Virus record (IMG/VR): IMGVR_UViG_3300030103_005593
Location: 1-58,023 of that record
DNA length: 58,023 nucleotides
Strand: one strand, 5' to 3'
DNA from: a virus
Position 1 is the stretch's first letter. Every line of letters begins with the position of its first letter. Below the pieces are notes generated by a model. That model made no database searches. It saw only the letters and a list, made by a program, of their open reading frames with translations, and was not told the origin of the DNA. A program made the position numbers and the translations under genes. This document shows, in pieces, positions 6,746 to 54,288 of the stretch.

Positions 6746-7377
6746 TGAAAAAGTTTATTTACATAACCTTAATAAGTTTCCTTTGGGCGTGTAGCCCAGA
6801 GGAGCTTATTGAAAATTACCCATGTATAGGGGATTGTGATACAGCTTTTTATATTGATCCTTTAGTATCACCTGGTGTTTATCAAGACGAAAATGGATAT
6901 TGGCATATTGAACATCAAGGATATAATTATTTTACTATTAAAGGTAATACTAGTGAATTGCATCCTGATTATGTTGTTAATGATGTTCCCTTAATTGAAA
7001 CCGTTTTTGATTCTAATTATTGGGTTTGGATTGATAGTATAACATTTACAGTTCCATTATATAGTGTATTAAGTTATTTTACAGATGGTAATTATAATAA
7101 TCCAATTCCTATAGGCAATTTAACATATACTATAGAGGATATGGCTGATGTTCATCCTCCCTTAAATATTGTTGGTTATTCTGTAAACCCCAATCAGTGT
7201 TTTGATTGTCCTTATTCTGAAACACTTATAGGTACTTATAGTAAGTATAATTATACACCTCAACAACAAATATTTTTTGATAATGAAATGGTAGGAGATA
7301 CAGCTACAGTATTTGTAAAAACGGTATTTAATAGTGAAATTGAAGTTGAAAAAGAATTTAATATTATATTTGAATAA
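6745..7377 (+). CDS. Phage-encoded lipoprotein (210 aa)
   Basis: The first 16 residues are a lipoprotein signal peptide: KK, hydrophobic core FIYITLISFL, lipobox LWAC with C16 as lipidation site. The mature protein starts CSPEELIENY; acidic residues just after the Cys resemble the export signals that send Bacteroidota lipoproteins to the cell surface. The remainder is Asn/Tyr/Pro-rich and beta-type, with two further cysteine pairs (YPCIGDC and QCFDC). It is co-transcribed with the DUF932-like gene. A surface lipoprotein made early could block receptor use by competing phages; that role is inference. Confidence 0.75.
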   Translation: MKKFIYITLISFLWACSPEELIENYPCIGDCDTAFYIDPLVSPGVYQDENGYWHIEHQGYNYFTIKGNTSELHPDYVVNDVPLIETVFDSNYWVWIDSITFTVPLYSVLSYFTDGNYNNPIPIGNLTYTIEDMADVHPPLNIVGYSVNPNQCFDCPYSETLIGTYSKYNYTPQQQIFFDNEMVGDTATVFVKTVFNSEIEVEKEFNIIFE

Positions 7378-34200: not shown

Positions 34201-37200
34201 TGGTACTTCAGGCACAAGTGGTTCATCAGGAACAAGCGGAACTTCAGGTTCAAGCGGTACATCGGGTACAAGTGGTTCATCTGGTACTTCTGGTACAAGT
34301 GGAACATCAGGCACTTCAGGAACAAGTGGTAATGATGGTTCATCTGGTTCTTCTGGTACTTCAGGTACATCAGGTACTTCTGGATCAAGTGGAACATCAG
34401 GAACATCAGGTTCAAGTGGAACGAGTGGTTCATCCGGAACAAGTGGTACTAGTGGAACTAGTGGCTCCTCTGGAACAAGTGGAACAAGCGGTTCATCAGG
34501 TACATCAGGTACAAGTGGTGAAGATGGATCTTCGGGATCATCAGGAACTTCAGGTTCAAGTGGTACAAGCGGTTCTTCTGGCACATCAGGAACTTCAGGT
34601 ACAAGTGGTTCATCTGGTACTAGTGGTTCAAGTGGTACTTCTGGTACATCAGGTACTAGTGGTACGAGTGGAACTTCTGGTTCATCAGGTACTAGTGGTA
34701 CAAGTGGAAGTTCTGGTACATCAGGTTCTTCTGGTACATCTGGTTCAAGTGGAACTTCGGGAACAAGCGGAACTTCGGGTACAAGTGGAACTTCAGGTTC
34801 AAGTGGTGAAGCAGGTTCTTCAGGTTCTTCAGGTACAAGTGGAACATCTGGTACCAGTGGCTCTTCAGGCACAAGTGGTTCATCAGGAACAAGTGGAACT
34901 AGTGGCACATCAGGTACTTCAGGAACTTCAGGTACAAGTGGTTCAAGTGGAACATCGGGAACTTCAGGTACAAGTGGCTCAAGTGGAACAAGTGGTTCTT
35001 CAGGAACAAGTGGTACTTCAGGCACTTCAGGAACAAGTGGTACTTCAGGAACTTCAGGAACAAGTGGCTCATCAGGAACAAGTGGCTCATCAGGATCAAG
35101 TGGAACAAGCGGTTCATCTGGTTCTTCAGGTACAAGTGGTACATCAGGAACTTCAGGGTCATCTGGTTCTTCAGGAACTTCAGGTACATCAGGTACTTCA
35201 GGTACAAGTGGCTCCTCTGGTTCTAGTGGCTCTTCAGGTACAAGTGGTACATCAGGTTCAAGTGGTACATCTGGTACTTCGGGCTCCTCTGGTTCTTCAG
35301 GCACTTCAGGTTCATCGGGTACATCAGACAAATATGCTACCACTTCAGGTACATCTTTTGCATTAAATAATTCAATTGATGCCACGATAACAGTTGAAAC
35401 AGGTTTAGCTTATACTCCTGCACAATCTATTATTATTGTACACGATGTAGATAATTTCCAAGAATGTGAAGTTGTAACTTATGATGATTCAACAGGTGCA
35501 TTAACTTTTTCACCTCCAACAAGAGTTGTGGGTAGTGGAACTTATTCAACTTGGACAGTTAACTTAGATGGTGCCTCAGGTGGGGATGGTTCTTCAGGTT
35601 CAAGTGGAACTTCAGGAACAAGTGGTTCATCAGGATCAAGTGGTACAAGTGGATCATCTGGTACTTCTGGTTCAAGTGGTACAAGCGGTTCTTCTGGTAC
35701 AAGCGGAACATCTGGTACAAGTGGAACAAGTGGAACATCAGGTTCAAGTGGAACTTCAGGCTCTTCAGGAACTTCGGGTACAAGTGGAACATCAGGAACT
35801 TCGGGTACAAGTGGAAGTTCTGGAACATCAGGTTCTTCTGGTGTATCAGGAACTGCTGGTTCATCAGGTACAAGTGGTTCATCTGGTACTAGTGGCTCTT
35901 CAGGATCTTCAGGAACAAGTGGTACAAGTGGTACTTCAGGTACTTCAGGTTCAAGTGGTTCTTCAGGAACAAGTGGAACAAGTGGTACTTCTGGTTCATC
36001 TGGTACTTCTGGATCAAGTGGTACAAGTGGTACTTCAGGTACTTCAGGCACCTCGGGTACATCAGGTTCAAGTGGTACTTCTGGATCAAGTGGTACAAGT
36101 GGTACAAGTGGGACTTCAGGTACAAGTGGTGAAGCAGGTTCTTCAGGTTCTTCAGGTACAAGTGGTTCATCTGGTACAAGTGGTTCTTCAGGAACAAGTG
36201 GAACAAGTGGCTCATCAGGATCAAGTGGAACAAGTGGTTCATCTGGTACATCAGGTTCTTCAGGCACAAGTGGTACTTCGGGTACTAGTGGAACAAGTGG
36301 ATCATCTGGTACTTCTGGTTCAAGTGGTACAAGCGGTTCTTCTGGTTCCTCGGGATCAAGTGGATCATCTGGTACTAGTGGGGCAGCAACGATTTTAGAT
36401 GAAGGAAATAATAGAGTTACTACTTCAACAGGAAACCCTGGTGAATTACAAGCTGAAGAATATTTCTTATTTAATTCTGATAGAAGAGGAGTTTGTATAG
36501 GTTCATCTCAAGGAATGACAGGTAACCTTAACTCAAGTATTTTAGGGGGTGATGGTAACTGTATAACAATTTGTTCAAACGCGTCAACAATAGCAGGTGG
36601 TAAAGCAAACTGTATAAGTAATTCAAGTTGTTATTCTTTTATTGGAGGGGGACGTAATAATGAAGTTTGTGAAGACGATGCAAGTGTGGTTGGCGGTAGA
36701 GCAAATACCGCTTCAGCAGATTCAAGTTTTATTGGAGGTGGATGTAAGAATAGTATAAGTGCAAATAGTAATTGTTCTTTAATTGGTGGTGGTTTTTGTA
36801 ATACTATAAAAGATCATTCTAGTGGTTTTCAATGTAGTAGTGCAATAGTTGGAGGATTTGATAATGTTGTTTGTAGTCTTGGTAGTACCATAGCTGGTGG
36901 GGAAAAAAATGAAATAAAAAATCATAGAAATTTTATTGGTGCTGGAGCCTGTAATATTATTTCTGGTAGCTCAGCATTTATTGGAAGTGGTTTTTGCAAT
37001 CAACAAGAAGGTGCTTATGGAGTAATAGCAGGAGGTGCTGAAAATTGTATCGATACAACAGCGGGAACTATTGCAGGTGGATGTAAAAATATAATTGATG
37101 ATGCATCCCATGGAGCCACCTATAGCTTTATAGGAGGTGGTCGTAGTAATTTTATTAGTGGATCTTCAAGGAGTGGTATTTTAGGAGGTTGTCAGAACCT

Positions 37201-40200
37201 TATTCAATCTCCACAAGTTATTGGTGGATTAAACACTGCAGTTAATGATACATTTATTATTGGTAGTGATATTACAGCATCTTGTGGATGTTCAACTTAT
37301 GTAAATCAACTTAACATTGGTACAGTTAATACAGGTACAGAAGACGATGTATTAATTATTGATTCTGATGGTTTTGTTAAAAAGAAAACAGCTGCAGCAA
37401 GCTCAGGCTCTTCAGGTTCAAGTGGTACTTCTGGTTCATCTGGTACTTCTGGATCAAGTGGTACAAGTGGATCATCAGGTTCTTCAGGTACTTCTGGATC
37501 AAGTGGTACAAGTGGGACTTCAGGAACTTCAGGTTCTTCAGGAACTAGTGGAACATCTGGTTCTTCAGGTACATCGGGCTCAAGTGGTTCTTCAGGAACT
37601 TCAGGTTCTTCAGGTACATCAGGTTCAAGTGGAACATCAGGTACAAGTGGAACATCAGGTACATCTGGTTCATCTGGTACTAGTGGCTCTTCAGGTTCAT
37701 CAGGTTCTTCAGGAACTAGTGGCTCTTCAGGTTCAAGTGGTACAAGTGGATCAAGTGGTACTTCAGATAAATATGCTACTACTTCAGGTACATCTTTTGC
37801 ATTAAACAATTCAACTAACGCTACAATAACAGTTGAAACTGGTCTTGCATATACACCCGCTCAATCTATTATTATAGTACATGACGTAGATAATTTTCAA
37901 GAGTGTGAAGTTGTAACTTATGATGATTCAACAGGAGCATTGACTTTTGCCCCACCAACTAGGGTTGTAGGTAGTGGAACTTATTCTACTTGGACAGTTA
38001 ACTTAGACGGTGCCTCAGGTGGAGATGGAAGTTCAGGATCAAGTGGTTCTTCAGGTACATCTGGTTCTTCAGGTTCTTCAGGTACATCTGGTTCATCTGG
38101 TACTAGTGGTTCTTCGGGTTCATCTGGTACTTCAGGTAGTTCAGGTACAAGTGGAACAAGTGGTTCATCCGGTACTTCTGGATCATCAGGTACAAGTGGT
38201 TCATCAGGTACTTCAGGTACTTCAGGTTCAAGTGGAACAAGTGGAACATCAGGTTCTAGTGGTACTTCAGGAACTTCTGGTTCAAGTGGTACTAGTGGTT
38301 CAAGTGGTTCTTCAGGTTCATCCGGTACTTCTGGATCAAGTGGTACATCGGGTACAAGTGGTTCATCAGGAACATCAGGAACTTCTGGTTCTAGTGGAAC
38401 AAGTGGTTCATCAGGTACTTCAGGTTCAAGTGGAACAAGTGGATCATCAGGTTCATCAGGAACAAGTGGTTCATCTGGTTCAAGTGGTTCAAGTGGTACA
38501 AGTGGTGCAGCAACAATTTTAGATGAAGGAGATGATAGAGTTACTACTTCAACAGGAAATGCTGGTGAATTACAAGCAGAGGAATATTTCTTATTTAATT
38601 CAGGTAAAAGAGGAGTTTGTATTGGTACTTCTCAATCAATGACTGGTAATTTAAATTCTAGTATTTTAGGTGGTCAAGGTAATTGTATAACAGTTTGTTC
38701 AAACGCGTCAACAATTGGAGGAGGTACTGGAAACTGTGTAACTAATTCTTCTTGCTATTCATTTGTAGGAGCTGGTGTTGGTAATGAAGCTACCTGTGAT
38801 AAAGTATTTATAGGAGGAGGTTGTTGTAATACAGGTTCTGGAGAATTTTCTGCTATTGCTGGAGGTTGCTTTAATGTTGCTTCAAATATAGGAACATTTA
38901 TTGGTGGAGGAAAACAAAATGAAACTAAAAGATGTTTTTCTGCAATTGCCGGTGGAACAATAAACTGTACTAATTCTTCTTATGGGCATGATTTTATTGG
39001 TGGAGGTAGAAATAATACAATTAACACCTCTCTTTCGGGTTATAGTAGTATAGCTGGTGGCTCTTCAAACTCTATTTCTAATACCTACTCAGGTTATAGT
39101 TTTATTGGAGGTGGTGCGAGTAATAAAACTTGTGCTTGTTACGCTTCTATAATTGGTGGTGGAAATAATATTATTTTGAAAAATCATTCTGTAATTGGAG
39201 GAGGTTTTAAAAACACTGGATCATCAGCATGTAGTTTTATAGGAGGTGGTTGTAATAATGAAATATCTTCTAGTTTTAATGCTTGTGGTATAGAAGAGTT
39301 TTCATTTATAGGTGGTGGTAGAGACAATTGCATAACCTCACGTACATTTTGTATGGGTACTTGTTGTGTAGGCTACAATGTAATAGTAGGTGGACGATGT
39401 AATCAACTAAAATGTGTTAAGTCAGATGGATCAGTTGAAATTGGATGCTCTGTAATTGTAGGAGGATTTATAAATACAGGTTCAAAAGCTAATACTTTTA
39501 TAGGGGCTGGAAAATGTAATTATACTGCTGGTCAAAACTCTAGTGTTGTTGGAGGGTTAAGTAATAAAGCTTCTGGATTTAACGGTGTTGTTGCAGGTGG
39601 TTGTTGTAATGTAGCTGGTTCACATTCATTTATAGGAGCAGGAAAGAGTAATACTGCTACTTGTATTGATGGTGGTATAGTAGCAGGACAGAGTAATACT
39701 GCTGGTGGTTGCCAATCTTTTATAGGAGCAGGTACTTCTAATATTATAGGTGGTGGTTCAAAAAATAGTATAGTTGGAGGTGGTGGAAATATAATTTGTA
39801 ATGGAGCTAGCCTACCATCTTATCCTTCTTGCGGTGTGTTTATTGGAGGGGGATGTTTAAATCAAATAAATAACTGTAGTGCAGTTGCACAGTTTGTAAC
39901 TGTAGTTGGTGGGTGTCGAAATTTTGCACATGGATGTGCCTCAGTTATTGTAGGTGGTAATTGTAACTGTGTACTTACAAATCGTTCATTTGTTGGAGGA
40001 GGATGTTGTAATACTATATCTTCTCATATAACTGCTGTTATCGCTGGAGGTTGTTGTAATAGTATTGCTGGTTCAGGAGGTAGTGGATTTATAGGAGGTG
40101 GAGCTTCCAATGCTATTTGTTCTAGTACAAATTCCGGTCATATAATAGTAGGAGGTTCAGAAAATAAATCATGCAATACAAGTACTGGTGGAGGTCATAC

Positions 40201-41395
40201 TATCGTAGTAGGAGGATGTTGTAATTGTGCTCTTGGAAGTTATTCAATAGTAGTAGGTGGTAAATGTAATAAAGCTTGTGGAAATTGTAGTTTTATAGGA
40301 GGTGGTGTTAATCATTGTGCTATAGGATGTTGTTCTGCAATAGTAAGTGGATGTTGTAATAGGGTTTGTGAGATAGAAGGGTTTATAGGATCTGGTAACT
40401 GTAATGAAATTACTGCTGCGGGTTGTGCTCGGTCAAGTTTTATTGGTAGTGGTTTTAATAATAAAGTTTATGGTAACTGTGGTTTTATAGGAGGAGGAAG
40501 TGGTAATGGAATTGCATTCCAACAAAGTATAGGAACAATTGGTGGTGGAAGTAGTAATTTGGTTAATGCAATCGGTGGATTTGTTGGAGGTGGATGTGAC
40601 AATCATGTTGAAAGAAACATAATGAGTGCTACTGGATGTTATGGAGCTATAGTAGGTGGTTGTAGTAATAATGTACAAGGTAATTGTGGTTTTATTGGAG
40701 GAGGTTTTAACAATGATGTAACATGTAATGGAAACTTTGGAGCAGTTTTAGGTGGTTGTTGTAATTGTGTAAACCATTCTAACTCACATATTATTGGATC
40801 AGATTTAACTTCTTGTACTTCTTGTACTACTCATGTTAACTGTCTTAACATTAAATCAACTTGCGGAGGAAGTAACGGTGCTAAACAAGTTAGTATAATA
40901 CCTGGAATTTCATCAAATGGTAGTGTTGTTACAGACATGCAAGAAATTGTAATAGCTTATAATAATACCCAAATATCAGGAATCCAGGGATCAAATGGAG
41001 CTTGTGTAATTTTAGCAGCTCCTGGGGCAAATAAAACAATAGTACTTTATGAAGCTGCATTCCAAATCACAACTTCAGGTACAAACACAACACAAGGATT
41101 CCAAAGAAGTTTAAATGTAATTACTCCTGCATTTAATTGTAATAATACAAACATAAATCCTAATGCTACAGCAGCATTAGTACCTGCAAATGTATTGCAA
41201 AATGCAATGAGAAATGGTCAATGTCGTACAACTTACCAAAGGGATACACCTACAGATGGTAGAATATATTCTACAAATCAATGTGTTTACTTTGGATGGA
41301 GTGGTGCAAATGCTTACCCATCTGGTTTACCATCACAATGGACTTGTTTAAAAGCTAGAATTAGATATAAAATTTATTGTGACACAGCATTCTAA
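31298..41395 (+). CDS. Giant tail fibre with Gly-X-Ser triplets, globular modules and Cys-rich beta-roll (3365 aa)
   Basis: One continuous frame. Order by residue: 1-92 attachment domain shared with the preceding fibre (NSWHVSQSVDAFTAQDAYDI); Gly-Thr-Ser/Gly-Ser-Ser triplet blocks from 93 on, broken by five copies of an ~85-residue module starting (D)(K/R)YATTSGT at residues 139, 274, 786, 1344 and 2157; beta-roll A at 1696-2033; more triplets and the fifth module; beta-roll B at 2404 to about 3188, with about 68 cysteines; tip domain 3189-3365 (SIIPGISSNGSVVTDMQEIV, ending KARIRYKIYCDTAF). Glycine at every third place is collagen-like, but proline is absent. A trimeric long fibre is expected, with the tip as likely receptor contact. 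Confidence 0.8.
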   Translation: MAKQLENIFNPNVDEISQGFTINSWHVSQSVDAFTAQDAYDISISGSLNNTGSASFSGSVFTPDLTDTSADFEVVVVDNTTKELKKTTSLAAGSSGSSGSSGTSGTSGTSGTSGSSGTSGTSGSSGNSGSSGSSGADGDRYATTSGTSETLGDGNKCINIELGLAYTAGQEMIMANSDTAFQTALVVSYNPVTGILCYGDIITQEGTGTYSSWQVNLSGNVAGSSGTSGTSGTSGTSGTSGGIGEAGSSGSSGSSGTSGTSGSSGTSGSSGTSDKYATTSGTTYQLGASTPCLTVETGLAYTTAQSIIIVHDIDNFQECEVSSYNSATGELCFTNITRQVGSGTYSTWTVNLDGASGGDGSSGSSGTSGTSGSSGTSGTSGSSGTSGTSGSSGASGSSGSSGTSGTSGTSGTSGSSGEDGSSGSSGTSGTSGTSGTSGSSGTSGTSGSSGTSGSSGTSGTSGTSGSSGTSGTSGTSGSSGTSGTSGSSGTSGTSGSSGTSGTSGSSGTSGTSGTSGTSGSSGEDGSSGSSGTSGTSGSSGTSGSSGTSGSSGTSGTSGSSGTSGTSGTSGTSGSSGTSGTSGSSGTSGTSGTSGTSGTSGTSGSSGSSGTSGSSGSSGTSGTSGSSGTSGTSGSSGTSGSSGTSGTSGTSGTSGSSGTSGSSGSSGTSGSSGTSGTSGSSGSSGTSGTSGSSGTSGTSGTSGTSGTSGTSGNDGSSGSSGTSGTSGTSGTSGSSGSSGTSGSSGTSGSSGSSGTSGTSGSSGTSGTSGTSGTSGTSGSSGTSGLSDRYATTSGTSFALNNSINTTITVETGLAYTPAQSIIIVHDVDNFQECEVVTYDSGTGALTFAPPTRVVGSGTYSTWTVNLDGASGGDGSSGSSGTSGTAGSSGTSGSSGTSGTSGTSGTSGTSGSSGTSGTSGSSGTSGTSGSSGTSGTSGSSGTSGTSGTSGTSGTQGEDGSSGSSGTSGTSGTSGTSGSSGTSGTSGSSGTSGTSGSSGTSGTSGTSGTSGTSGNDGSSGSSGTSGTSGTSGSSGTSGTSGSSGTSGSSGTSGTSGTSGSSGTSGTSGSSGTSGTSGEDGSSGSSGTSGSSGTSGSSGTSGTSGTSGSSGTSGSSGTSGTSGTSGTSGTSGSSGTSGTSGSSGTSGSSGTSGSSGTSGTSGTSGTSGTSGSSGEAGSSGSSGTSGTSGTSGSSGTSGSSGTSGTSGTSGTSGTSGTSGSSGTSGTSGTSGSSGTSGSSGTSGTSGTSGTSGTSGTSGTSGSSGTSGSSGSSGTSGSSGSSGTSGTSGTSGSSGSSGTSGTSGTSGTSGSSGSSGSSGTSGTSGSSGTSGTSGSSGSSGTSGSSGTSDKYATTSGTSFALNNSIDATITVETGLAYTPAQSIIIVHDVDNFQECEVVTYDDSTGALTFSPPTRVVGSGTYSTWTVNLDGASGGDGSSGSSGTSGTSGSSGSSGTSGSSGTSGSSGTSGSSGTSGTSGTSGTSGTSGSSGTSGSSGTSGTSGTSGTSGTSGSSGTSGSSGVSGTAGSSGTSGSSGTSGSSGSSGTSGTSGTSGTSGSSGSSGTSGTSGTSGSSGTSGSSGTSGTSGTSGTSGTSGSSGTSGSSGTSGTSGTSGTSGEAGSSGSSGTSGSSGTSGSSGTSGTSGSSGSSGTSGSSGTSGSSGTSGTSGTSGTSGSSGTSGSSGTSGSSGSSGSSGSSGTSGAATILDEGNNRVTTSTGNPGELQAEEYFLFNSDRRGVCIGSSQGMTGNLNSSILGGDGNCITICSNASTIAGGKANCISNSSCYSFIGGGRNNEVCEDDASVVGGRANTASADSSFIGGGCKNSISANSNCSLIGGGFCNTIKDHSSGFQCSSAIVGGFDNVVCSLGSTIAGGEKNEIKNHRNFIGAGACNIISGSSAFIGSGFCNQQEGAYGVIAGGAENCIDTTAGTIAGGCKNIIDDASHGATYSFIGGGRSNFISGSSRSGILGGCQNLIQSPQVIGGLNTAVNDTFIIGSDITASCGCSTYVNQLNIGTVNTGTEDDVLIIDSDGFVKKKTAAASSGSSGSSGTSGSSGTSGSSGTSGSSGSSGTSGSSGTSGTSGTSGSSGTSGTSGSSGTSGSSGSSGTSGSSGTSGSSGTSGTSGTSGTSGSSGTSGSSGSSGSSGTSGSSGSSGTSGSSGTSDKYATTSGTSFALNNSTNATITVETGLAYTPAQSIIIVHDVDNFQECEVVTYDDSTGALTFAPPTRVVGSGTYSTWTVNLDGASGGDGSSGSSGSSGTSGSSGSSGTSGSSGTSGSSGSSGTSGSSGTSGTSGSSGTSGSSGTSGSSGTSGTSGSSGTSGTSGSSGTSGTSGSSGTSGSSGSSGSSGTSGSSGTSGTSGSSGTSGTSGSSGTSGSSGTSGSSGTSGSSGSSGTSGSSGSSGSSGTSGAATILDEGDDRVTTSTGNAGELQAEEYFLFNSGKRGVCIGTSQSMTGNLNSSILGGQGNCITVCSNASTIGGGTGNCVTNSSCYSFVGAGVGNEATCDKVFIGGGCCNTGSGEFSAIAGGCFNVASNIGTFIGGGKQNETKRCFSAIAGGTINCTNSSYGHDFIGGGRNNTINTSLSGYSSIAGGSSNSISNTYSGYSFIGGGASNKTCACYASIIGGGNNIILKNHSVIGGGFKNTGSSACSFIGGGCNNEISSSFNACGIEEFSFIGGGRDNCITSRTFCMGTCCVGYNVIVGGRCNQLKCVKSDGSVEIGCSVIVGGFINTGSKANTFIGAGKCNYTAGQNSSVVGGLSNKASGFNGVVAGGCCNVAGSHSFIGAGKSNTATCIDGGIVAGQSNTAGGCQSFIGAGTSNIIGGGSKNSIVGGGGNIICNGASLPSYPSCGVFIGGGCLNQINNCSAVAQFVTVVGGCRNFAHGCASVIVGGNCNCVLTNRSFVGGGCCNTISSHITAVIAGGCCNSIAGSGGSGFIGGGASNAICSSTNSGHIIVGGSENKSCNTSTGGGHTIVVGGCCNCALGSYSIVVGGKCNKACGNCSFIGGGVNHCAIGCCSAIVSGCCNRVCEIEGFIGSGNCNEITAAGCARSSFIGSGFNNKVYGNCGFIGGGSGNGIAFQQSIGTIGGGSSNLVNAIGGFVGGGCDNHVERNIMSATGCYGAIVGGCSNNVQGNCGFIGGGFNNDVTCNGNFGAVLGGCCNCVNHSNSHIIGSDLTSCTSCTTHVNCLNIKSTCGGSNGAKQVSIIPGISSNGSVVTDMQEIVIAYNNTQISGIQGSNGACVILAAPGANKTIVLYEAAFQITTSGTNTTQGFQRSLNVITPAFNCNNTNINPNATAALVPANVLQNAMRNGQCRTTYQRDTPTDGRIYSTNQCVYFGWSGANAYPSGLPSQWTCLKARIRYKIYCDTAF
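31712..38027 (+). repeat. Five copies of an ~85-residue globular fibre module
   Basis: Copies begin at 31712, 32117, 33653, 35327 and 37766. Shared features are YATTSGT, an ETGLAYT-type strand (ELGLAYT in copy 1), IIIVHDxDNFQECEV in copies 2-5, GSGTYSTWTVNLDGASGGDG at the end of copies 2-5, and GTGTYSSWQVNLSG in copy 1. Copies 3, 4 and 5 are nearly identical in protein but differ at many third codon positions; copy 1 is most divergent. Confidence 0.85.
36383..37396 (+). repeat. Beta-roll repeat region A of the giant fibre
   Basis: Starts with AATILDEGNNRVTTSTGNPG, which also introduces region B. About sixteen repeats of the (S/F)-I-x-GG-x-x-N type follow (SSILGGDGNC, STIAGGKANC, SFIGGGRNNE). 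It ends with a domain YVNQLNIGTVNTGTEDDVLI before the triplets resume. It matches the short fibre at 30107 in repeat type and end sequence (TTYVNNLNVG). Confidence 0.75.
38507..40860 (+). repeat. Cysteine-rich beta-roll repeat region B
   Basis: Begins AATILDEGDDRVTTSTGNAG and runs for about 785 residues of repeats of the type FIGGGCCNxx and IVGGCxNxx. Cys occupies the two places after GG(G) in many repeats, and another Cys often sits at the start of the following turn (CGNCSFIGGG, YGNCGFIGGG). About 68 Cys were counted by hand. Asn follows the Cys pair almost always. Confidence 0.8.
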
Positions 41396-41792: not shown

Positions 41793-42668
41793 ATGAATGT
41801 AATCTTTCAAATAGACGGAGGTCTAGGTAAATCTATTATGGCAACTGCCATGGTTAAAGTTTTAAGAAAACGTTATAAAAATGCTCACATTGTAGTTGTT
41901 ACCCCTTATTCTGATGTATTTTTAAATAATCCTCACATTAACGAATGTATTAGACCAGATAATATGAATGGGGCTTACTTAAAGTATATTAAGGATCAGA
42001 ATTGTAAAATTTTTATAGAGGATCCTTATCGTAATACTTCGTTTTTAACAGATAAGGAACATTTACTTAAAACTTGGTGTAAAATTTATGGGCTTCATTA
42101 TAATAATGAACAACCTGAACTTTATCTTACTCAACCTGAAATAGATTATTTCAAACCTTTTTATGAAACTGAAAAACCTATTTTAGCAATTCAACCCCAT
42201 GGAGGACCTCAAGAACAAGGATTTAAATATTCTTGGACAAGAGATATTCCAAATCCAACAGTTGAACAAATAATTGAACATTATGTAAATGATTATACAA
42301 TTATTCATATAAAAAGACAAGACCAACATATTTACCCCAATACGATGCAAGCTTTAGATGGATTTAGGAGTATAGCTATATTATTACAATTATCTAAAAA
42401 ACGTTTATTGATAGATTCTTTTGGACAACATTTATCAGCTTCTTTGGGAATAAAATCTACAGTTTGTTGGGTTACTACTAAACCTAAAGTATTTGGTTAT
42501 AAATTACATGATAATATAATATCAAATTCCTTTACAAAAGACCCTCAAATACAAAATTCTGTTTATCAACCCTTTAATTTAGCACAAGATATTTCATCTA
42601 TTCCCTATAATGATTTAAATGAAGTATTTGATGTAGATAAAATTATAGAGTCTATAAATAAACAATAA
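41793..42668 (+). CDS. Glycosyltransferase family 9-like (heptosyltransferase-type) protein
   Basis: A 291-residue GT-B-like protein. The N-terminus NVIFQIDGGLGKSIMATAMV (GGLGKSI, residues 9-15) followed by KVLRKRYKNAHIVVVTPYSD then VFLNNPHINE is typical of ADP-heptose:LPS heptosyltransferase-like proteins. The second half has ILAIQPHGG, TIIHIKRQDQ and LLIDSFGQHLSASLGIKSTV, the region that binds the sugar nucleotide in this fold. It is somewhat shorter than bacterial enzymes (about 330-350). It could modify host surface glycan or the Ser/Thr-rich fibre. The stop overlaps the sulfotransferase start (TAATG), so the two are coupled. Confidence 0.7.
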   Translation: MNVIFQIDGGLGKSIMATAMVKVLRKRYKNAHIVVVTPYSDVFLNNPHINECIRPDNMNGAYLKYIKDQNCKIFIEDPYRNTSFLTDKEHLLKTWCKIYGLHYNNEQPELYLTQPEIDYFKPFYETEKPILAIQPHGGPQEQGFKYSWTRDIPNPTVEQIIEHYVNDYTIIHIKRQDQHIYPNTMQALDGFRSIAILLQLSKKRLLIDSFGQHLSASLGIKSTVCWVTTKPKVFGYKLHDNIISNSFTKDPQIQNSVYQPFNLAQDISSIPYNDLNEVFDVDKIIESINKQ

Positions 42669-43483
42669 TGGAAAAAATTTTTTTTCAATCCTCTTTACCT
42701 AGAGCAGGTAGTACATTATTACAAAATATTTTAGGACAAAATCCTGATTTTTATGTTACACCAACTTCTGGTGTATTAGAGTTACTATTTGCTGCTAGAA
42801 CTAATTACACAAATGATAAAGCCTTCCAAGCTCAAGACTCAGAATTAATGAAAAAAGGATGGCTTAATTTTTGCCGCCAAGGAGTAGAAGGATTTTTTAA
42901 TGGTATTACAGATAAAAAATATATAGTTGATAAATCTAGGGGATGGGGAATACATTATGATTTTTTAAATTCTTTTTATCCTAATCCTAAAATAGTTTGT
43001 ATGGTTAGAGATTTAAGGTCTATCTATGCTTCTATGGAAAAAAACTTTAGAAAAAACCCAGATAAAGATAGTGGTATAGTCAATTGGGGTAAAATGGAAG
43101 GAACTACTACATTTAAAAGAGTAGATATATGGGCTCAAAATCCCCCAATCGGTATTGCTGTAGAAAGATTACAACAAATGATAAATGAAGGTATAGATAA
43201 AAATATTTTATTTATACGATTTGAAGATTTAACTTCTAATCCCCAAATAGAATTAGATAAAGTATATGATTTTTTTGAAGTGGGGAAATACCAACATGAT
43301 TTTCAAAATGTAGAACAGTTAACACAAGAAGATGATACAGTACATGGTATATTTGGTGATCATACAATCCGTAAAGAAGTTAAACCTGTTCCTAAAACAT
43401 ATAATCAATATTTAGGTGAAGATTTATCCCAATCTATAGTTAATACATACCCTTGGTTTTACGATTATTTTCAATATTTATAA
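42668..43483 (+). CDS. Sulfotransferase family protein
   Basis: A 271-residue PAPS-dependent sulfotransferase-like protein. PRAGSTLL (residues 11-18) is the 5'-phosphosulfate loop. KIVCMVRDLRSIYASMEKNF, with R114 and S118, is the 3'-phosphate-binding segment. A late RFEDLTSNPQIELDKVYDFF is the usual conserved helix. The protein should transfer sulfate from PAPS to a hydroxyl or amine of a glycan, lipid or peptide. It is coupled to the glycosyltransferase gene, so a sulfated glycan is a natural product hypothesis. No signal peptide is present; the acceptor is unknown. Confidence 0.8.
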   Translation: MEKIFFQSSLPRAGSTLLQNILGQNPDFYVTPTSGVLELLFAARTNYTNDKAFQAQDSELMKKGWLNFCRQGVEGFFNGITDKKYIVDKSRGWGIHYDFLNSFYPNPKIVCMVRDLRSIYASMEKNFRKNPDKDSGIVNWGKMEGTTTFKRVDIWAQNPPIGIAVERLQQMINEGIDKNILFIRFEDLTSNPQIELDKVYDFFEVGKYQHDFQNVEQLTQEDDTVHGIFGDHTIRKEVKPVPKTYNQYLGEDLSQSIVNTYPWFYDYFQYL

Positions 43484-44003: not shown

Positions 44004-45113
44004 ATGGGAAATAAGTTATCAATAATAGGCCGTGGAACGGTTGGGTGTTTAACTGCTTTAAAATTTAGTAATAAAGGCTTTGATATCGATTGGTATCAAG
44101 ACCCCCACATACAACCCCTATCAGTTGGGGAAGGTGCGGATTTATCATTACCTTATTTTCTAACTAATGAATTAAAATTTAGTTATGAAGATTTAATTGA
44201 TATTGGGGGATATTATAAACATGGTATTGAAAAAATAAATTGGACTAAAAAACCATTTACACATTGGTTTGAATTAGGAAGAACTTCTATCCATATTAAT
44301 TCAGTTAATTTACAAAATTTTATAATAAATAAAATATCTTCTAAAGTAAATATTATTGAAAAAAACATTCAAAGTAACAAATTAAAATCTTATGTAATTG
44401 ATTGCTCTGGTGCACCACCACCAACAGAAGAAAGATATGAAACCCCAATCCCAGTTAATAATGCTTATGTAACTCAATGTCCTTGGAAGCAACCTAAATT
44501 TAATAAAACATTATGTATAGCACAAAAATATGGATGGGTATTTTTAATTCCGTTACAAAATAGATGTTCAGTAGGTTACTTATATAATAGTGATTATTCT
44601 GATTTAGACTTAATAAAATCATCAGTAAAATCTATTTTTAAAAAATATAATCTAAAACCCCAAGAAAGTAAAAATTTATCTTTTAATAATTTTTATAGAA
44701 AAACAAATTTTAAAAATAACATATGTTATAATGGTAATTCTTCATTTTTCTTAGAACCTATAGAAGCAACATCACTAAATACTTCAATAACAGTAATAAA
44801 ACAAATTGATAAACTTTTTAGCGGTGATATGGATTTAAATGAAACTAATGATAAATACAAAAAGTTTTTGGAAGAAACAATTGATATTATTATGTTACAT
44901 TATTTAGTAGACCCACCTTATAAAACGGAATTTTGGGAAATGGCACATACTAAAGCAAAAGATTGGCTTACTAATCGTGTTAAAAATTATCCAAGGATAA
45001 GAATAATAAATCAAGAAGGTGTATATGATTATTCTACATGGTATGAAGATAGCTTTAAACAAAACCTAACGGGTTTAAATTTATATGGTAAACTAAAAGA
45101 ACTAGGATGGTAA
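44004..45113 (+). CDS. Flavin-dependent halogenase-like protein
   Basis: A 369-residue protein of the tryptophan halogenase-like flavoprotein family. The dinucleotide motif is IIGRGTVGCLTALKF (GxGxxG, residues 9-14). SVGEGADLSLP (40-50) matches the family's 'VGE.t.P'. K72 in YKHGIEKINW sits where the catalytic Lys of PrnA/RebH lies. The WxWxIP signature appears as W178-V-F180-L-I-P183, with the second Trp replaced by Phe. FFLEPIEATSLNTSI (248-262) is the conserved FAD/halide-site block. Bacterial Trp halogenases are over 500 residues, so this is a short form. Halogenase-like genes are known from marine cyanophages. Substrate unknown; a flavin monooxygenase without halogenation is the alternative. 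Confidence 0.75.
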   Translation: MGNKLSIIGRGTVGCLTALKFSNKGFDIDWYQDPHIQPLSVGEGADLSLPYFLTNELKFSYEDLIDIGGYYKHGIEKINWTKKPFTHWFELGRTSIHINSVNLQNFIINKISSKVNIIEKNIQSNKLKSYVIDCSGAPPPTEERYETPIPVNNAYVTQCPWKQPKFNKTLCIAQKYGWVFLIPLQNRCSVGYLYNSDYSDLDLIKSSVKSIFKKYNLKPQESKNLSFNNFYRKTNFKNNICYNGNSSFFLEPIEATSLNTSITVIKQIDKLFSGDMDLNETNDKYKKFLEETIDIIMLHYLVDPPYKTEFWEMAHTKAKDWLTNRVKNYPRIRIINQEGVYDYSTWYEDSFKQNLTGLNLYGKLKELGW

Positions 45114-47612: not shown

Positions 47613-48146
47613 ATGATCAAATTAGTAGATATTCTTAATGAAATAGTTCCACCTAAGAATACTTGGTTTCCTTTATCAAAAGTGGAAGTAAAAGATGTTG
47701 AAAAAGAAATTTTAGATTTAATTAATAATGCTTATAGTTCAATTGGGGGCCATCCTAATTATAAATCAGTTAATGATTTAGCAGGCTCGGAGTATGAAAT
47801 TATTGATTTAGATGATGATCCTGAATTAGATGCTGTAACAGTAACAAAACAAAGAGCGGGTGGTACTAAACATGTGGGCATAGGACATGATGGAACTAGC
47901 CCAGGTAAAAGAGGAGCAATAGGTCGTACTATAGATAAATTAAATGAACCCTCAAATTATATTGAAGCATCAGGTGCTATAGAAAATATTTTACGTAAAG
48001 CCAATGTAACACAAGTTACGGATGAAGAAACAATTCGTAAAGCACTTAAAGGTAAAGAAATAAAAATGTATGATGATGGTTCATATGATCGAGTTTTAGG
48101 AGGAAAAAAATATAGAAAAACAATGTGGGGAAAACCAACAGTATGA
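47613..48146 (+). CDS. Hypothetical protein with capsid-targeting-like N-terminus (177 aa)
   Basis: The N-terminus MIKLVDILNEIVPPK has Leu at position 8 and Glu at position 10, as the T4 internal-protein targeting peptide has Ile8 and Glu10 before its cleavage point. The rest is acidic in the first half (NDLAGSEYEIIDLDDDPELD) and Gly/Lys-rich in the second (GHDGTSPGKRGAIGRTIDKL). The C-terminus is basic (LGGKKYRKTMWGKPTV). It overlaps the following gene by four bases. No family recognised; packaging into the head is an inference from the N-terminus and from neighbours. Confidence 0.55.
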   Translation: MIKLVDILNEIVPPKNTWFPLSKVEVKDVEKEILDLINNAYSSIGGHPNYKSVNDLAGSEYEIIDLDDDPELDAVTVTKQRAGGTKHVGIGHDGTSPGKRGAIGRTIDKLNEPSNYIEASGAIENILRKANVTQVTDEETIRKALKGKEIKMYDDGSYDRVLGGKKYRKTMWGKPTV

Positions 48147-48943
48147 TAAGTTTAATGCAATTATTAAAAGAAGCACAAGGTAATCCAAAAGCAATTATCT
48201 TAGCAGGAGCACCTGGAGCAGGTAAAGGATATATTTTACGTGGTTTAGACTTAGGAGGTCTAAAAGTAATGAATGTAGATGATATATTTGTTGAAAAATT
48301 AAAACAAGCTAATGTTACTTTAGATTTAAAAAATGCAACACCCGAAGAACGAAGTGAACAAGCTAAACAAATGGCAGCTTCAAATAAAGAATTTAAAGGT
48401 AAACTGCAAGATATAATAGATGGTAAACAATCATTTATCCTAGATGGTACCGCAGCTTCAATTAAAACTACCACTAAACTACAATCTGAATTAAAGGCAG
48501 CAGGATATGATGTATTTATGCTTTATGTTTATACTGATTTAGAACGTTCATTAATGCAAAACCAAGATAGATTTGAAAAATCAGGTGGTAAAGATAGAAG
48601 TTTAGCACCTGCTATTGTAATGAGAACATGGGCATCTGTAACAGATAACTTTGGGGCATATCAAGCAATGTTTAAACCTAATTTTGTTTCAGTTGCTAAT
48701 ACTTTAGAAGATGAAAAATTAACAGACGTAGAAGATATAATAAAAAAATATTTAGATCCTTTTAAACCTACAGGAACTAAACCAAAGGATGCAAAGGCAC
48801 AAGCAAGATCAGATAAATCCAAAGCCGCATTAAATGCTAAATTAAAAGATTTATTATCTGATTCTGAAGCTGAAATAATAATAAAAAACTCAGTATCAAA
48901 AGAAGAGGCACAATCTAAAATTAAACAATTTTTAAGTTCATGA
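48143..48943 (+). CDS. P-loop kinase-like (zeta-toxin-like) protein
   Basis: The ATG at 48143 (ATGA overlap with the previous stop) is preferred to an upstream in-frame GTG. The protein has 266 residues. MISLMQLLKE|AQ resembles a cleavable capsid-targeting peptide (L8-x-E10). Walker A is GAPGAGKG (22-29), followed by LKVMNVDDIFVEKL and an ILDGTAASIKTTTKLQSELK block, in the order of zeta-toxin/AAA-type small-molecule or protein kinases. The C-terminal 60 residues are Lys/Ala/Ser-rich and probably extended. Substrate unknown. If packaged, it could be injected to phosphorylate host targets. Confidence 0.65.
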   Translation: MISLMQLLKEAQGNPKAIILAGAPGAGKGYILRGLDLGGLKVMNVDDIFVEKLKQANVTLDLKNATPEERSEQAKQMAASNKEFKGKLQDIIDGKQSFILDGTAASIKTTTKLQSELKAAGYDVFMLYVYTDLERSLMQNQDRFEKSGGKDRSLAPAIVMRTWASVTDNFGAYQAMFKPNFVSVANTLEDEKLTDVEDIIKKYLDPFKPTGTKPKDAKAQARSDKSKAALNAKLKDLLSDSEAEIIIKNSVSKEEAQSKIKQFLSS

Positions 48944-50859
48944 GTTTAGTTAAAGAACTAATTAAAGATTTACTACCTGAACAAAAATATAAAAAAACGG
49001 TAGCTGTATATGGAGGTGGTTTTAAACCACCCACCAAAGGTCACTTTGAAGTTGTAAAACAAGCAATTAAGGAAAATCCTGATATTGATGAATTTATAAT
49101 TAATATAGGGGGTAAAGCAAGAGATGGTGTTACTCCTGAAGAAGCAATTCAAATTTGGGATATCTACAAACAATACCTCCCAGTTTCTGCTAATATTAAT
49201 ATTCAATATAGTAGCACTCCTCCCATTAAGGCAACTTATGATTATGCTAAAAATCATCCTGATGAAGAAGTATTATTTATTTTAGGTGCTAGAGAAGGAA
49301 ATGATGATGATTTTAAAGATATATCTTCTAGAACTAAATCTTTAGATAAATACCCTAATTTAAATTTACGTACTATAGTAACCCAAGGCGGAGTATCAGG
49401 AACAGCAGCTAGGAATGCTGGTAAAATAAGTTCTGAAAAATTAAGACGCTTTTTACCTGATGAATTAAGTAATGAAGAAGTAGAACAAGTATACCAAATG
49501 ATTTCAGACAAATTAACTGAAGGTAGAAAAAAGAAGAAAGACCCTAAAAAAGGCACAGGTAAAAAACCAAAAAAATCTGGGCGTAGACTATACACAGATG
49601 AAGACCCAAAAGACACAGTTGGTATTAAATTTAGTACTAGACAAGATATAGTAGATACATTAAGTAAAAAATCATTTAAAGCTAAATCACATGCTAGACA
49701 ATCCCAAATTATTAATTTAATTCATCAAAGAGTAAGGGCAGCATTAGGTAGAACTAAAGATCCAAAGAAAAAAGCTAAATTGCAATCTGGATTTAAATAT
49801 ATTAAAAAACGTAAGGAAGCATCTAAAGCTAAAACACAACGTTTAAAAAAACAAAAACTAAAAGAGCAAATAGATTCTAGTAAGTTTAATTACCAACCTT
49901 ATATCATGTCGCTTACGCAACATATGATAGATAATGGCTTAAAATTAGAACCATTACCTAAAATTCAAATGATACATGATGATTATGAAAATGGAGAAGA
50001 TTTATTTGGTAAAACAGCATATTATGCACCTGCAACCAACTTAGTAGTACTTTATACTTACGGTAGGCACCCTAAAGATATTTTACGATCTTATGCCCAT
50101 GAATTAATTCATGTACATCAGAATATGGAAGATAGATTAAGTAATATTAATACTACTAATGTAAATGATGATGATTATTTAGAGCAATTAGAAAGGGAAG
50201 CATATGAAACTGGTAATATAATGTTTAGAAGTTGGACTGATTCACTTACTGGTAATAAACTAGAAGAATCAGTAAAAAAATTAATCACTGAAAAAAAGAA
50301 AAAAGATCCATTTGGGTTAAATGCTTATGCTATGGAACTAGCTAAGGGTTTAGAAGAACAAACAAGTGAATATAAAGTATACCTTGATATGGATGGGGTA
50401 CTAGCTGATTTTGACCAACGTTTTAAAGATATATCAGGTATGGAACCTAAGGAATTTGAAGCTAAATATGGTACTAAAGAATTTTGGAATCTTATAGATG
50501 AAGAAAATAAAATCAGTTTTTGGGTAGGTATCCCTGAAATGCCAGGGGCTAAAGCATTAGTTGATGCTGTTAAAAAATATAATTATGAATTATTAACTTC
50601 ACCATCAGCTAAAAAACAATCTTATTTAGGTAAAATACTTTGGGTAAGAAATCATAGCAACTTGTTTGGTGGAAAACCTCGTATTAATTTTAAGCGAGCT
50701 AAAGAAAAGCATGAAGTTAAACCTGAATTAACTAAAACTGATATTCTAATTGATGATAGAGAAGACACAATTGGGAGATGGAACGCAGCAGGTGGTACAG
50801 GTATAGTATATAAAAATGTAGGTCAAGTATTAAATGATCTTAAAAAATTAGGTTTATGA
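48940..50859 (+). CDS. Three-domain fusion: nucleotidyltransferase, zincin-like protease, HAD phosphatase
   Basis: A 639-residue protein. Residues 18-190 form a cytidylyltransferase-like domain with VYGGGFKPPTKGH (T32-K-G-H35 as HxGH variant) and GVSGTAAR (ISSTxxR-type). Residues 195-310 are a Lys-rich linker or basic domain. Residues 315-440 hold a metalloprotease-like H387-E-L-I-H391 with a later E in LEREAYETG. Residues 478-639 are a 5'-nucleotidase-like HAD domain with D483-M-D485-G-V-L-A-D, LLTSPS and DILIDDRED. The sequence L/I-x-E occurs at 12-14, 192-194, 307-309, 449-451 and 471-473, that is, at the N-terminus and each domain border. Both ends overlap neighbouring genes by four bases. 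Confidence 0.75.
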   Translation: MSLVKELIKDLLPEQKYKKTVAVYGGGFKPPTKGHFEVVKQAIKENPDIDEFIINIGGKARDGVTPEEAIQIWDIYKQYLPVSANINIQYSSTPPIKATYDYAKNHPDEEVLFILGAREGNDDDFKDISSRTKSLDKYPNLNLRTIVTQGGVSGTAARNAGKISSEKLRRFLPDELSNEEVEQVYQMISDKLTEGRKKKKDPKKGTGKKPKKSGRRLYTDEDPKDTVGIKFSTRQDIVDTLSKKSFKAKSHARQSQIINLIHQRVRAALGRTKDPKKKAKLQSGFKYIKKRKEASKAKTQRLKKQKLKEQIDSSKFNYQPYIMSLTQHMIDNGLKLEPLPKIQMIHDDYENGEDLFGKTAYYAPATNLVVLYTYGRHPKDILRSYAHELIHVHQNMEDRLSNINTTNVNDDDYLEQLEREAYETGNIMFRSWTDSLTGNKLEESVKKLITEKKKKDPFGLNAYAMELAKGLEEQTSEYKVYLDMDGVLADFDQRFKDISGMEPKEFEAKYGTKEFWNLIDEENKISFWVGIPEMPGAKALVDAVKKYNYELLTSPSAKKQSYLGKILWVRNHSNLFGGKPRINFKRAKEKHEVKPELTKTDILIDDREDTIGRWNAAGGTGIVYKNVGQVLNDLKKLGL

Positions 50860-51463: not shown

Positions 51464-52729
51464 ATGAAAGATAATTTTGACCTTTATTCTTGGAATAAAA
51501 ATCGTTATTTAGGAAAAGCTAAAATGGCTAAAGAAACTGAAAAAAAAGATTTTAATTTACGAGAATGGAATAAAAAACGCTATTTAGGCGAATTAGATAT
51601 CAACACAACAGGGGGTGATACTAATGTTGATAATCTAAATATAGATAAAGGTGGAGATGATCCCAAGATGGGAGCAGAATTAGAATCTGATGCTAATGTA
51701 GTAGGTGAAAACCAATCACATTTAGAATTTTTATCTAAGTATTTAGAAAAAATGCATCCTGGTTTAAGATTTGATGTTAGAAAAGAACCTTTTGATAGAA
51801 TTGATGTAATGGGTTCTCAACAAGATTTAGCTAATTTTGGTAGAGAAATGCATGGTAAAAAATTTGGCGAATATGAAGTATTTGCTGTTGATGATGATGA
51901 TAGAGGAGAAATTGTTCGTATAGTTAAATCTTCAAGTATTGCAAGAGGCAAATTAGAAGAGGGTGTAGTTAAAGACATGCATACCTTTTTAAATGACTTA
52001 AGAGACTCAGGCGTAACTAATATGTTTGGTGCTGCTCCTTATCTACAAAAAGAATTTGGCATAGACCAAAAATCGGCAAGAGAAGTATTAGCTAATTGGA
52101 TGCAATCATTTAGTGAAAATCTAGAATATAAAGGTAGAAAATTTAGTAGTGAAGAAGAAGATAGATTAGATTTAATTGCACATAAAGAATTTAATGGTAA
52201 AGATTTTAGTAAATTATCTGATGAGGATAAAGCTAAAGTATTTGCAAAAAGAGATCAAGTTGGTGTTAGAGAAATGATTGATTACGATGAAGCTTTAACA
52301 TTAAGGGGTATGAAAGCTGAATTAGAAGATCAAATTGCTCAATTATTCAGAGACATGGAGCAAGAAGCTGAACCAGAAGGTGGACCAATTGCAGATAGAT
52401 ATGGTGATGAATTAAATAAATTAGAAGACCGTTTATATAAAATCAATAAACAACTTCGTGATTATGATATGAATGAAAGTAAAAAATCAATTAAGGAAAC
52501 ACTACGTTTTATTAAAGAAAACAATCCAGAATTTACTAATGAAGAAATTAAAGCTGAATTAAAAGAAATTAAAGAATTAGGCAGTCAATTAAACGAAAAA
52601 CTTTGCAAAAAAGGAGAAGCATATCGTAAACGTAGAATGGCTGCTGGTGAAAAATCATCTGCTTATTTATCTGGTCGTGCTGTTAAAGTATGTAAAGGTC
52701 AAATGAGTGGTAAGAAAAAGAAAAAATAA
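51464..52729 (+). CDS. Probable head-associated protein with duplicated WNKxRYLG motif (421 aa)
   Basis: The N-terminus carries a tandem motif: [14 protein letters not shown] (residues 5-18) and [14 protein letters not shown] (about 29-42). A mixed alpha/beta region follows ([20 protein letters not shown]-like; [20 protein letters not shown]). The C-terminal 90 residues are helical and Lys/Glu-rich with a basic end ([14 protein letters not shown]) and two Cys. The start 'M-x-D-N-F-D' recurs in the protein at 54314. Late promoter upstream. Composition suggests a scaffold, core or internal head protein. No family recognised. Confidence 0.55.
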
Positions 52730-53466
52730 TGGCATTAAACGAAATAGGACCTTCAAGTAGAGAAAGACTTACTACCTTAGCTAAAAGTATAGGTAGAGAG
52801 GAATTTGCTATGAATGTACTAGAAATACCAGATGAAAATGTATTAGATCAATTAGCTGATGAATTATCTAAATTATATGATATGAGAACAGTTAATGAAA
52901 ATGAAGATAGTGATAATAATAGAGTACCCGAAGCGGCTTTAATTTTACCTAGAGGTAAAGAGGTTATATTACAAGCCGAAGAACAGGATTATAAAAGAGG
53001 ATTAAAAGTAACTTTATTAGAAAGTGGAGGATATAAAGTAAAATACTGGTATGGAGATGATGTAAAAACATATCCTGTTGAAGTAGAAGTTGATGGTGTA
53101 TCTATAAAAAAAGATGCTAGAGAAGTTGACATATTATTCCACCCAGAATTAAAAGAAAATGTAGCTCCTAACCATAATGGTAAATCATCTCCATTTGGTT
53201 CTGGATATAAAAAAGCAGTTATAGAATCATTGCGTGATTGGTTTAAAAAAGAAGATTGGGTAAGAATTAATACATCAGGTAATATCGCAGGTAAATGTGG
53301 TACAATGAAAAAAGGTAAAGCTACAACCAGATGTTTGCCTAGAAAAAAGGCACAATCTCTTACAAAAGCAGAACGTAAAGCTACTGTAGCTAAAAAAGTA
53401 CGTGGTAGTAAAAAAGGCAAACAGTTTGTGAAAAACACAGACAAAGCCGAATTTAAAAAGAAATAA
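52729..53466 (+). CDS. Hypothetical protein with basic CGTMKKGKATTRCLPRKKA-type C-terminal domain (245 aa)
   Basis: Two parts are visible. Residues 1-145 are mixed alpha/beta (VILQAEEQDYKRGLKVTLLE with VKYWYGDDVKTYPVEVEVDG). Residues 160-245 form a basic domain: ESLRDWFKKEDWVRINTSGN, IAGKCGTMKKGKATTRCLPR, KKAQSLTKAERKATVAKKVR. The second part is a recognisable conserved unit in many phages and some bacteria, of unknown function, with two conserved Cys. It is coupled to the preceding gene (TAATG) and followed directly by a lipoprotein gene. Confidence 0.6.
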   Translation: MALNEIGPSSRERLTTLAKSIGREEFAMNVLEIPDENVLDQLADELSKLYDMRTVNENEDSDNNRVPEAALILPRGKEVILQAEEQDYKRGLKVTLLESGGYKVKYWYGDDVKTYPVEVEVDGVSIKKDAREVDILFHPELKENVAPNHNGKSSPFGSGYKKAVIESLRDWFKKEDWVRINTSGNIAGKCGTMKKGKATTRCLPRKKAQSLTKAERKATVAKKVRGSKKGKQFVKNTDKAEFKKK

Positions 53467-54288
53467 ATGAAGTTAATATATTCATTATTAATACTACTTC
53501 TTACTAGTTGTGGTGTCCAATGGCAATACACAACACTAAACCATGCTGCTCAAATAGATTCAATTTATAGATCAAATGATTACCAAGTAGATACTATAAC
53601 TTCAGTGTCTGATTTAAGATGGAAATTAAGAACAGACTTTAATTTTAGATATGACTTTGCTCAATATGCAATGAATCAACCTTATTCTTGGTATTGGAAT
53701 AATCCAAGATTAGAGGGCATTTGGAGACCTTATAATAGATTTGATGTTTATTTTTATAGCAATTGGTTCTGGAATGATTGGGCTTTTAATTATCCTTTAC
53801 ATCATACTTGGGGATGGAACAATTGGTATAATTGGAATAGACCTTATCACTATTATGGATGGAATAGACCCTATAACCCTTGGAATAACTGGTATCAAGG
53901 ACCATTTAATAATTTAGGGTATAATGTGGTATATAATGCAAGTAGAAGAGGAGCTTTAACCACTAACTTAAATAGAAATTTTAATAGAATATCTAACAAA
54001 TTAACAGTAAATAGAAATAAACCTAGAGTAAATGTTAATAAACCTATTAATATACCTAATATTAATAACAATTCTAAACCAAATATAAATAACAATACAA
54101 TTAGAATTAATAAACCAAGAATTAATAATAACTCTAGACCAAGAATTAATAATAACTCTAGACCAAGAATAAACAATAATTCTAGACCAAGTTATGTACC
54201 TTCTTCAACTATAAGAACGGCTCCTAGCAGTAATTCAAGATCTAGTAATATTAGTATATCAAGAGGTAATTCTAGAGGAAAAAACTAA
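53467..54288 (+). CDS. Tyr/Trp/Asn-rich lipoprotein with C-terminal Asn-Arg repeats (273 aa)
   Basis: Signal peptide and lipobox: MKLIYSLLILLLTSC, with C15 as lipid site. Residues 60-160 are extremely rich in Trp, Tyr, Asn and Pro (WRPYNRFDVYFYSNWFWNDW; WNRPYHYYGWNRPYNPWNNW). Residues 175-250 contain basic Asn repeats, with PRINNNSR appearing in tandem. Ser-rich end. Proteins of this look are found in Flavobacteriia as outer-membrane lipoproteins. In a phage it may be a host-derived surface factor for exclusion or host remodelling. It lies under the late promoter at 51440, between head-type genes, an unexpected place for an exported protein. Confidence 0.7.
   Translation: MKLIYSLLILLLTSCGVQWQYTTLNHAAQIDSIYRSNDYQVDTITSVSDLRWKLRTDFNFRYDFAQYAMNQPYSWYWNNPRLEGIWRPYNRFDVYFYSNWFWNDWAFNYPLHHTWGWNNWYNWNRPYHYYGWNRPYNPWNNWYQGPFNNLGYNVVYNASRRGALTTNLNRNFNRISNKLTVNRNKPRVNVNKPINIPNINNNSKPNINNNTIRINKPRINNNSRPRINNNSRPRINNNSRPSYVPSSTIRTAPSSNSRSSNISISRGNSRGKN

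Follow-up and report, generated by a model that had tools for sequence, protein, structure and literature searches.

We examined a row of three adjacent genes on the plus strand of a viral DNA stretch of 58,023 nucleotides (the window), which makes up most of a linear 58.5 kb record in IMG/VR (IMGVR_UViG_3300030103_005593), and whose products begin with short peptides similar to the capsid-targeting sequence of the internal proteins of phage T4. The source of the DNA is a T4-like phage, represented by a fragmentary record. When proteins are compared, Flavobacterium phage immuto (160 kb) is the closest isolated phage, and Pelagibacter phage HTVC008M and Methylophilales phage Melnitz come next. 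Relatives from IMG/VR include long contigs of 158-164 kb, and it is on this length that we call them complete relatives. Loci and genomes of relatives are denoted by codes of the type L0xx, L1xx (L155 is immuto) and G001 (a complete relative).

The first gene, starting at 47613, encodes a protein of 177 amino acids that begins MIKLVDILNE/IVPP, where the slash marks the predicted end of the peptide. The second (48143) encodes 266 amino acids beginning MISLMQLLKE/AQGN, and the third (48940) encodes 639 amino acids beginning MSLVKELIKDLLPE/QKYK. A first-pass annotation of the interval 47613-48970, which spans the first two genes fully and the third at its beginning only, had pointed out the leucine at position 8 and the glutamate at position 10 of the first two starts and a 14-residue version in the third, and had proposed that the three products form a set of injected effectors. 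The two sequence observations hold, the third peptide having its glutamate at position 14. The row is tightly coupled: the start codons of 48143, 48940 and 50856 each overlap the stop codon of the preceding gene (ATGA), and for this reason the start calls of 48143 and 48940 are sound. For the second gene a longer GTG start at 48125 was rejected in favor of the ATG at 48143, which overlaps the stop codon of gene 47613 and is where homologues begin.

The first two proteins each consist of a peptide and a recognizable enzyme body. In the AlphaFold model of protein 1 the mean predicted local distance difference test score (pLDDT) is 91.7, and residues 1-9, within the predicted propeptide (47613..47642), fall below 50. 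Judging from the model and its fold matches, the mature body (residues 14-177; 47643..48146) is GNAT acetyltransferase-like (VIA-align Z 10.0, root-mean-square deviation 3.7, 149 aligned residues; Foldseek E 2.7e-4). Known GNAT structures align from residue 14 on, leaving the peptide outside the body fold. A search of solved-structure sequences with the GNAT alignment returned designed proteins only, and the fold search decided the identity. In protein 2 the predicted propeptide (48143..48172) precedes a body (48173..48943) that is, by its sequence, a Zeta-toxin-type P-loop kinase (Pfam Zeta_toxin, E 1.5e-18, 67.4 bits vs a curated cut-off of 22.3), with a Walker A motif, GAPGAGKG, that ends in GKG. 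No IP or Alt family was found among the Pfam and PHROGs matches of the three proteins (E 0.01).

The ten-residue signal of T4 IPIII has been mapped: targeting depends mainly on residues 4 and 7 and processing on residues 8 and 10, and the prohead protease gp21 cleaves after L/I-x-E (PMC9026906). The peptides of genes 47613 and 48143 fit all four mapped positions, of which the first-pass annotation had used two. Among the 53 plausible genes of the window the full register (hydrophobic at 4, 7 and 8, Glu at 10) occurs solely in this adjacent pair, and the looser L8/E10 type of pattern used earlier is likewise fitted by these two alone. When residues 2-24 were shuffled, the mean number of matches was 0.18; at least two matches came up in 1.6% of the trials, and two matching neighbors in 0.06%.

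The end of the peptide is retained in homologues of proteins 1 and 2. Glu 10 is among the 22 invariant columns in an alignment of 24 kinase sequences, which have 28-98% identity to the window protein and include those of HTVC008M (MIPFILKE/G) and Melnitz (MKTFAELQE/G). Of the 65 kinase homologues, 58 have glutamate at exactly position 10, and so do 29 of the 44 from the GNAT family; the remaining ones carry a shifted or different peptide, which also ends in hydrophobic-x-E. In the GNAT family one common body is preceded by peptides as different as MIKLVDLLNE, MISLVQLLKE, MSFDLKKYLAEGKLFE, MSFNLHGWFKKQYLKE, MKLTRILLE and MKSMYQLFLE. The second and last set of GNAT homologues contains 56 distinct N-termini, and without exception these end in an [LI]xE or hydrophobic-x-E peptide, of several unrelated types; the kinase homologue in L064 bears the second peptide type as well (MDNFNLKKYLAEGILLKE). 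That unrelated peptides are swapped while the motif end alone is kept is as expected of a modular, removable signal.

The first-pass annotation had suggested that the pattern be compared with N-termini of non-structural proteins. We counted the strict motif in those families from the homologue loci that have six or more open reading frames (ORFs), 31 in all. The rate is 93% in the kinases, 78% in the GNATs and 72% in a small SLRDWF family, and the motif is nearly absent from neighboring replication and metabolic families: 3% of 76 primases and none of 75 PD-(D/E)XK nucleases, 65 GIY-YIG proteins or 45 esterases have it. It is also very rare in the tail families. A rate of 50% of six members was obtained for the polyprotein family, to which protein 3 belongs, and for two small unrelated families, where it may be due to chance. 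In the immuto genome the stretch at 102-127 kb that separates the tail-fibre from the capsid genes has 31 genes, 15 of them with the motif vs 1.8 expected; in the early region it is present in 13 of 151 genes vs 8.7 expected. An immuto protein with such an N-terminus is gp093 (MISIYNILKE/V), and immuto also encodes a nucleotidyltransferase-zincin chain. One of the early-region genes (24569-24994) begins MIKLIDLLTE, and from this sequence a capsid-targeting peptide may also be carried by genes far from the head cluster. Other N-termini recur on unrelated immuto proteins (L002, L154, L155), namely a MENFDLKKFLVENKLT type (four genes), an MKKSQLR.IIKEAL type and MKKQILSEQFRRMQKLAGIITE/S (two genes), and these may represent further signal types.

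A protease of the matching family is encoded by relatives. Five large relatives as well as immuto and HTVC008M have a match over the cut-off to Peptidase_S77, the gp21-type family. The immuto protease itself carries LLTE/S near its start, and inspection by eye shows hydrophobic-x-E close to where the gp23 cut is expected in the immuto and G001 capsid proteins. Taken with the register, the swapping, the disorder of the peptide and the family control, this supports the proposal that the N-termini are T4-like capsid-targeting sequences. We therefore consider it likely that the three proteins are effectors that enter the head by a T4-type signal, are cut there by the prohead protease and are injected. 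An N-terminal signal equivalent to that of the T4 internal proteins would bring the three proteins into the assembling head, with residues 4 and 7 docking them to the prohead core; the gp21-type protease of the phage would then cut after L/I-x-E, leaving the GNAT, the kinase and the nucleotidyltransferase polyprotein in the head in their mature form. In the same step it would probably also split the polyprotein at L-x-E into single enzymes. The enzymes would be injected with the DNA, and their early targets may be the nucleotide, NAD or CoA metabolism of the host, its proteins or its defences; the presence of acetyltransferase, kinase and nucleotidase bodies next to a nucleotidyltransferase of the NadD/PPAT fold would fit early control of cofactors, host proteins or defence signals. 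From the peptides, their conservation and swapping, the folds, the borders and the protease of the relatives, all of which are computed, we infer packaging, cleavage, injection and host targets; of the originally proposed set of injected effectors it is thus the propeptides that are supported, and presence in the virion, cleavage and injection are deduced from them.

Several observations weigh against this interpretation. The protease gene is absent from the 58.5 kb fragment, and neither a virion proteome of a close relative nor, in a literature search, any study of the immuto virion was found. Not all versions of the third protein have the signal: the polyprotein homologues of L025, L032, L039 and G001 begin at the nucleotidyltransferase, without a peptide, and that of HTVC008M has K, not E, at position 10. 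The motif anywhere in residues 2-24 is weak by itself, with six window genes vs 3.1 expected, and in G001 even the strict motif on its own is modestly above shuffles. We rejected the loose motif alone as evidence, since it occurs at about twice the chance level in the window and in modest excess in G001; it is unselective near the start, and therefore the case rests on homologues. Chance fits of a few N-termini to a loose motif, passed on by homology, would have these frequencies in their favor, including those among the immuto early genes. We regard this as highly improbable, because the exact adjacent pair is so rarely obtained by shuffling, E10 is invariant across the whole range of kinase identities, and the border and cassette statistics given below go with it; the homologue data refute the chance explanation to a large extent.

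Conservation of the peptides could also have a different cause, for instance docking to a membrane or to a partner outside the head, with a coincidental L-x-E, and the enzymes could be ordinary late or auxiliary metabolic genes acting in the cell. Amphipathic N-terminal helices can serve many purposes, and the genes of the row adjoin primase and nuclease genes as well as late genes. This explanation appears improbable to us, though less so than chance, given that several unrelated peptide types swapped before the same body all keep a terminal hydrophobic-x-E, that the mapped T4 positions match, and that in immuto the peptides cluster in the stretch separating tail-fibre from capsid genes. As for the virion itself, the text of a study on the jumbo phage Atu_ph07 places 29 virion proteins within coding sequences 31-76, a range in which the kinase-bearing gp053 lies; we do not claim gp053 as a virion protein on this basis.

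The third protein had been described as a fusion enzyme, and the present analysis goes beyond this: it looks like a modular polyprotein whose domain borders carry the cut site seen at the end of the N-terminal peptides. Its N-terminal 14-residue peptide (48940..48981), with the same motif and in a segment of low pLDDT, is followed by a PPAT/NadD-like nucleotidyltransferase domain (residues 18-194; 48991..49521; VIA-align Z 16.7 to residues 1-160 of E. coli CoaD) that ends at an internal KLTE. A basic module, GRKKKKDPKKGTGKKP... (49522..49866), lies between this KLTE and a KLKE, the LxE sites at 194 and 309 both having low pLDDT. Between KLKE and a KLEE is a putative zincin-like domain (49867..50268), assigned solely by an HExxH motif (HELIH at residue 387) and without a Pfam match. 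After KLEE a disordered linker (50269..50358; pLDDT below 50 at residues 438-475) contains further sites, LITE and GLEE, with LxE at 443, 451 and 473, and leads to a 5'(3')-deoxyribonucleotidase of the HAD fold (NT5C; residues 475-638; 50359..50859; phrog_2643, E 5e-24; VIA-align Z 15.2 to 3bwv). Pfam gives nothing for the polyprotein of the window as a whole. Six of its ten LxE sites fall in low-pLDDT segments that make up 13% of residues, and the sites at 14, 194 and 473 coincide with borders of the nucleotidyltransferase and NT5C domains.

Members of the family range from 553 to 1322 amino acids and have gained and lost domains relative to each other. For six cassette types, [LIVM]xE is found within 22 residues upstream in 107 of 109 occurrences vs a background of 26%; the basic module is so preceded in 21 of 21 occurrences and the zincin cassette in 34 of 34. 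Other members contain ADP-ribosyltransferase-like domains (Tox-ART-HYD1 and ART-PolyVal, with weak scores; ART-PolyVal reaches E 1.2e-4 in one homologue), HAD and zinc-ribbon cassettes (some recognized by eye) and, between LxE sites, a whole Fe/Mn superoxide dismutase (L035:6044-9085, Pfam E 4e-30; L021:3071-6829). A cupredoxin-like cassette was also noticed by eye in the L021 polyprotein. Several cassettes are also found as separate genes, behind a peptide of their own. In immuto one begins MIKLIDLLTE/SLFPF and is found after PLNE inside the L062 chain; another forms a gene start in L077 and has its counterpart after DLTE inside the L078 chain; and the immuto NT5C begins MKKVMGNLADLLLE/ESDF (LLLE/ESDF). 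The kinase lies within a chain in Atu_ph07 (SEVTE/GVNDKHIFKAIFTAGGPGSGKT) and at the gene start in Melnitz (MKTFAELQE/GVYDPNIFKAIFLAGGPGSGKS). Downstream in the window, two ORFs on the plus strand are candidate further members of the set. The one at 51464..52729 has a cassette border, with a cassette also known as a separate gene and inside a polyprotein; the other, at 52729..53466, ends in a cassette behind AVIE/SLRDWFKKEDWVRIN, which in one complete relative is a separate gene with the start MITEERVYEIVKE/SLRDWFKK.

Two accounts of these LxE sites have to be compared. Loading may proceed through the N-terminal peptides, with a polyprotein that either remains uncut or is processed by its embedded zincin, and the LxE at borders would then only reflect flexible charged linkers. 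The window protein and many of its homologues have such a zincin, which could be the processing protease and is a further point against cleavage by the head protease; self-cleavage by such domains has been proposed for polyvalent proteins (Iyer et al. 2017, PMC5512222), and linkers are in general rich in Lys and Glu. Taking the ends of local alignments between family members as module borders, we found [LI]xE at most three residues from the border in 38% of 366 cases, which share ancestry and are not independent, vs 8% at random places and 9% after shuffling of the local composition. The related patterns [LI]xD, [LI]xK and [LI]xxE were at or near the random level in a first, coarser border test. 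Moreover, separate proteins that have no zincin also have terminal peptides ending in LxE, and L-x-E is the published specificity of gp21. We thus view an uncut or self-cut chain as unlikely and favor, with some reserve, a true effector polyprotein, in which sites of the head-maturation protease would lie between enzymes behind one T4-type signal and separate enzymes would be freed in the head before injection. The site would double as a recombination border for the exchange of injected enzymes, including the whole superoxide dismutase of some relatives.

A signal of the T4 internal-protein type and a chain of the polyvalent type are both already known. The T4 proteins IPI, IPII, IPIII and Alt (PMC9026906) have in common with the present ones the ten-residue peptide with hydrophobic residues at 4, 7 and 8 and Glu at 10, a protease of the gp21 family (here in relatives) and the use of one signal on unrelated bodies. 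Unlike in T4, the signal here precedes a GNAT, a Zeta-type kinase and a multi-enzyme chain and comes in several peptide types, LxE is also found between the domains of one long chain, and packaging is predicted. Polyvalent proteins of phages and conjugative elements, which are thought to be injected (PMC5512222), likewise combine many unrelated and exchangeable enzyme domains per chain, zincin and ADP-ribosyltransferase domains among them, and a Zeta-like kinase occurs in their MuF fusions. The family described here has two or more unrelated effector-type domains per chain, exchanged among relatives, and in this resembles the polyvalent proteins. For polyvalent proteins self-cleavage by embedded peptidases was predicted (PMC5512222), whereas here the site of a separate prohead protease lies at the borders and a T4-type signal at the start.

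Two further systems are comparable, as far as the available parts of the respective papers go. DarB of phage P1 (PMC9024508) also has an N-terminal signal that sends a large defence-blocking protein into the head, but there 30 N-terminal residues suffice, residues 6-10 are implicated, and that part of the paper mentions no L-x-E peptide. In SPN3US (PMC5694885, PMC10052503) ejection and head proteins are similarly trimmed by the phage prohead protease during assembly, but the phage group and the protease are different, and multi-enzyme cassettes are unmentioned in the parts available. We found no earlier description of the combination, a prohead protease site bordering exchangeable injected enzymes, in the literature searched, which covered few subscription journals. 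This marine phage probably loads its particle with an enzyme kit that is injected along with the DNA, which suggests a polyprotein strategy for the injected enzymes of tailed phages, with the head protease as processing enzyme. For large groups of marine phages, in which particle-borne, injected proteins are barely known, the peptides also offer a simple sequence rule for predicting them.

Other genes of the window deserve brief mention. The protein encoded at 3963-4952 has an N-terminus, MVNTHLVTWQEFLKE, like the MKTYQEFIAE of T4, and then LLME/AEVAAYN, which resembles the gp23 cut site; its remainder is unlike gp23 and matches no Pfam or PHROGs family. A protein of the tryptophan-halogenase family (44004-45113; PF04820, E 5e-32) is unexpected cargo for a phage late region, and a sulfotransferase gene (42668-43483; PF13469, E 3e-18) lies near it. 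One ORF of 3365 amino acids (31298-41395), presumably a fibre protein, contains degenerate GTSGTSG-type repeats over thousands of bases (about 32.4-38.5 kb), and a second giant ORF, of 3083 amino acids, occupies 18073-27324. Finally, a lipoprotein-like protein (MKLIYSLLILLLTSCG) with tandem RPRINNNS repeats is encoded at 53467-54288, and a second lipoprotein-like gene is located at 6745-7377.

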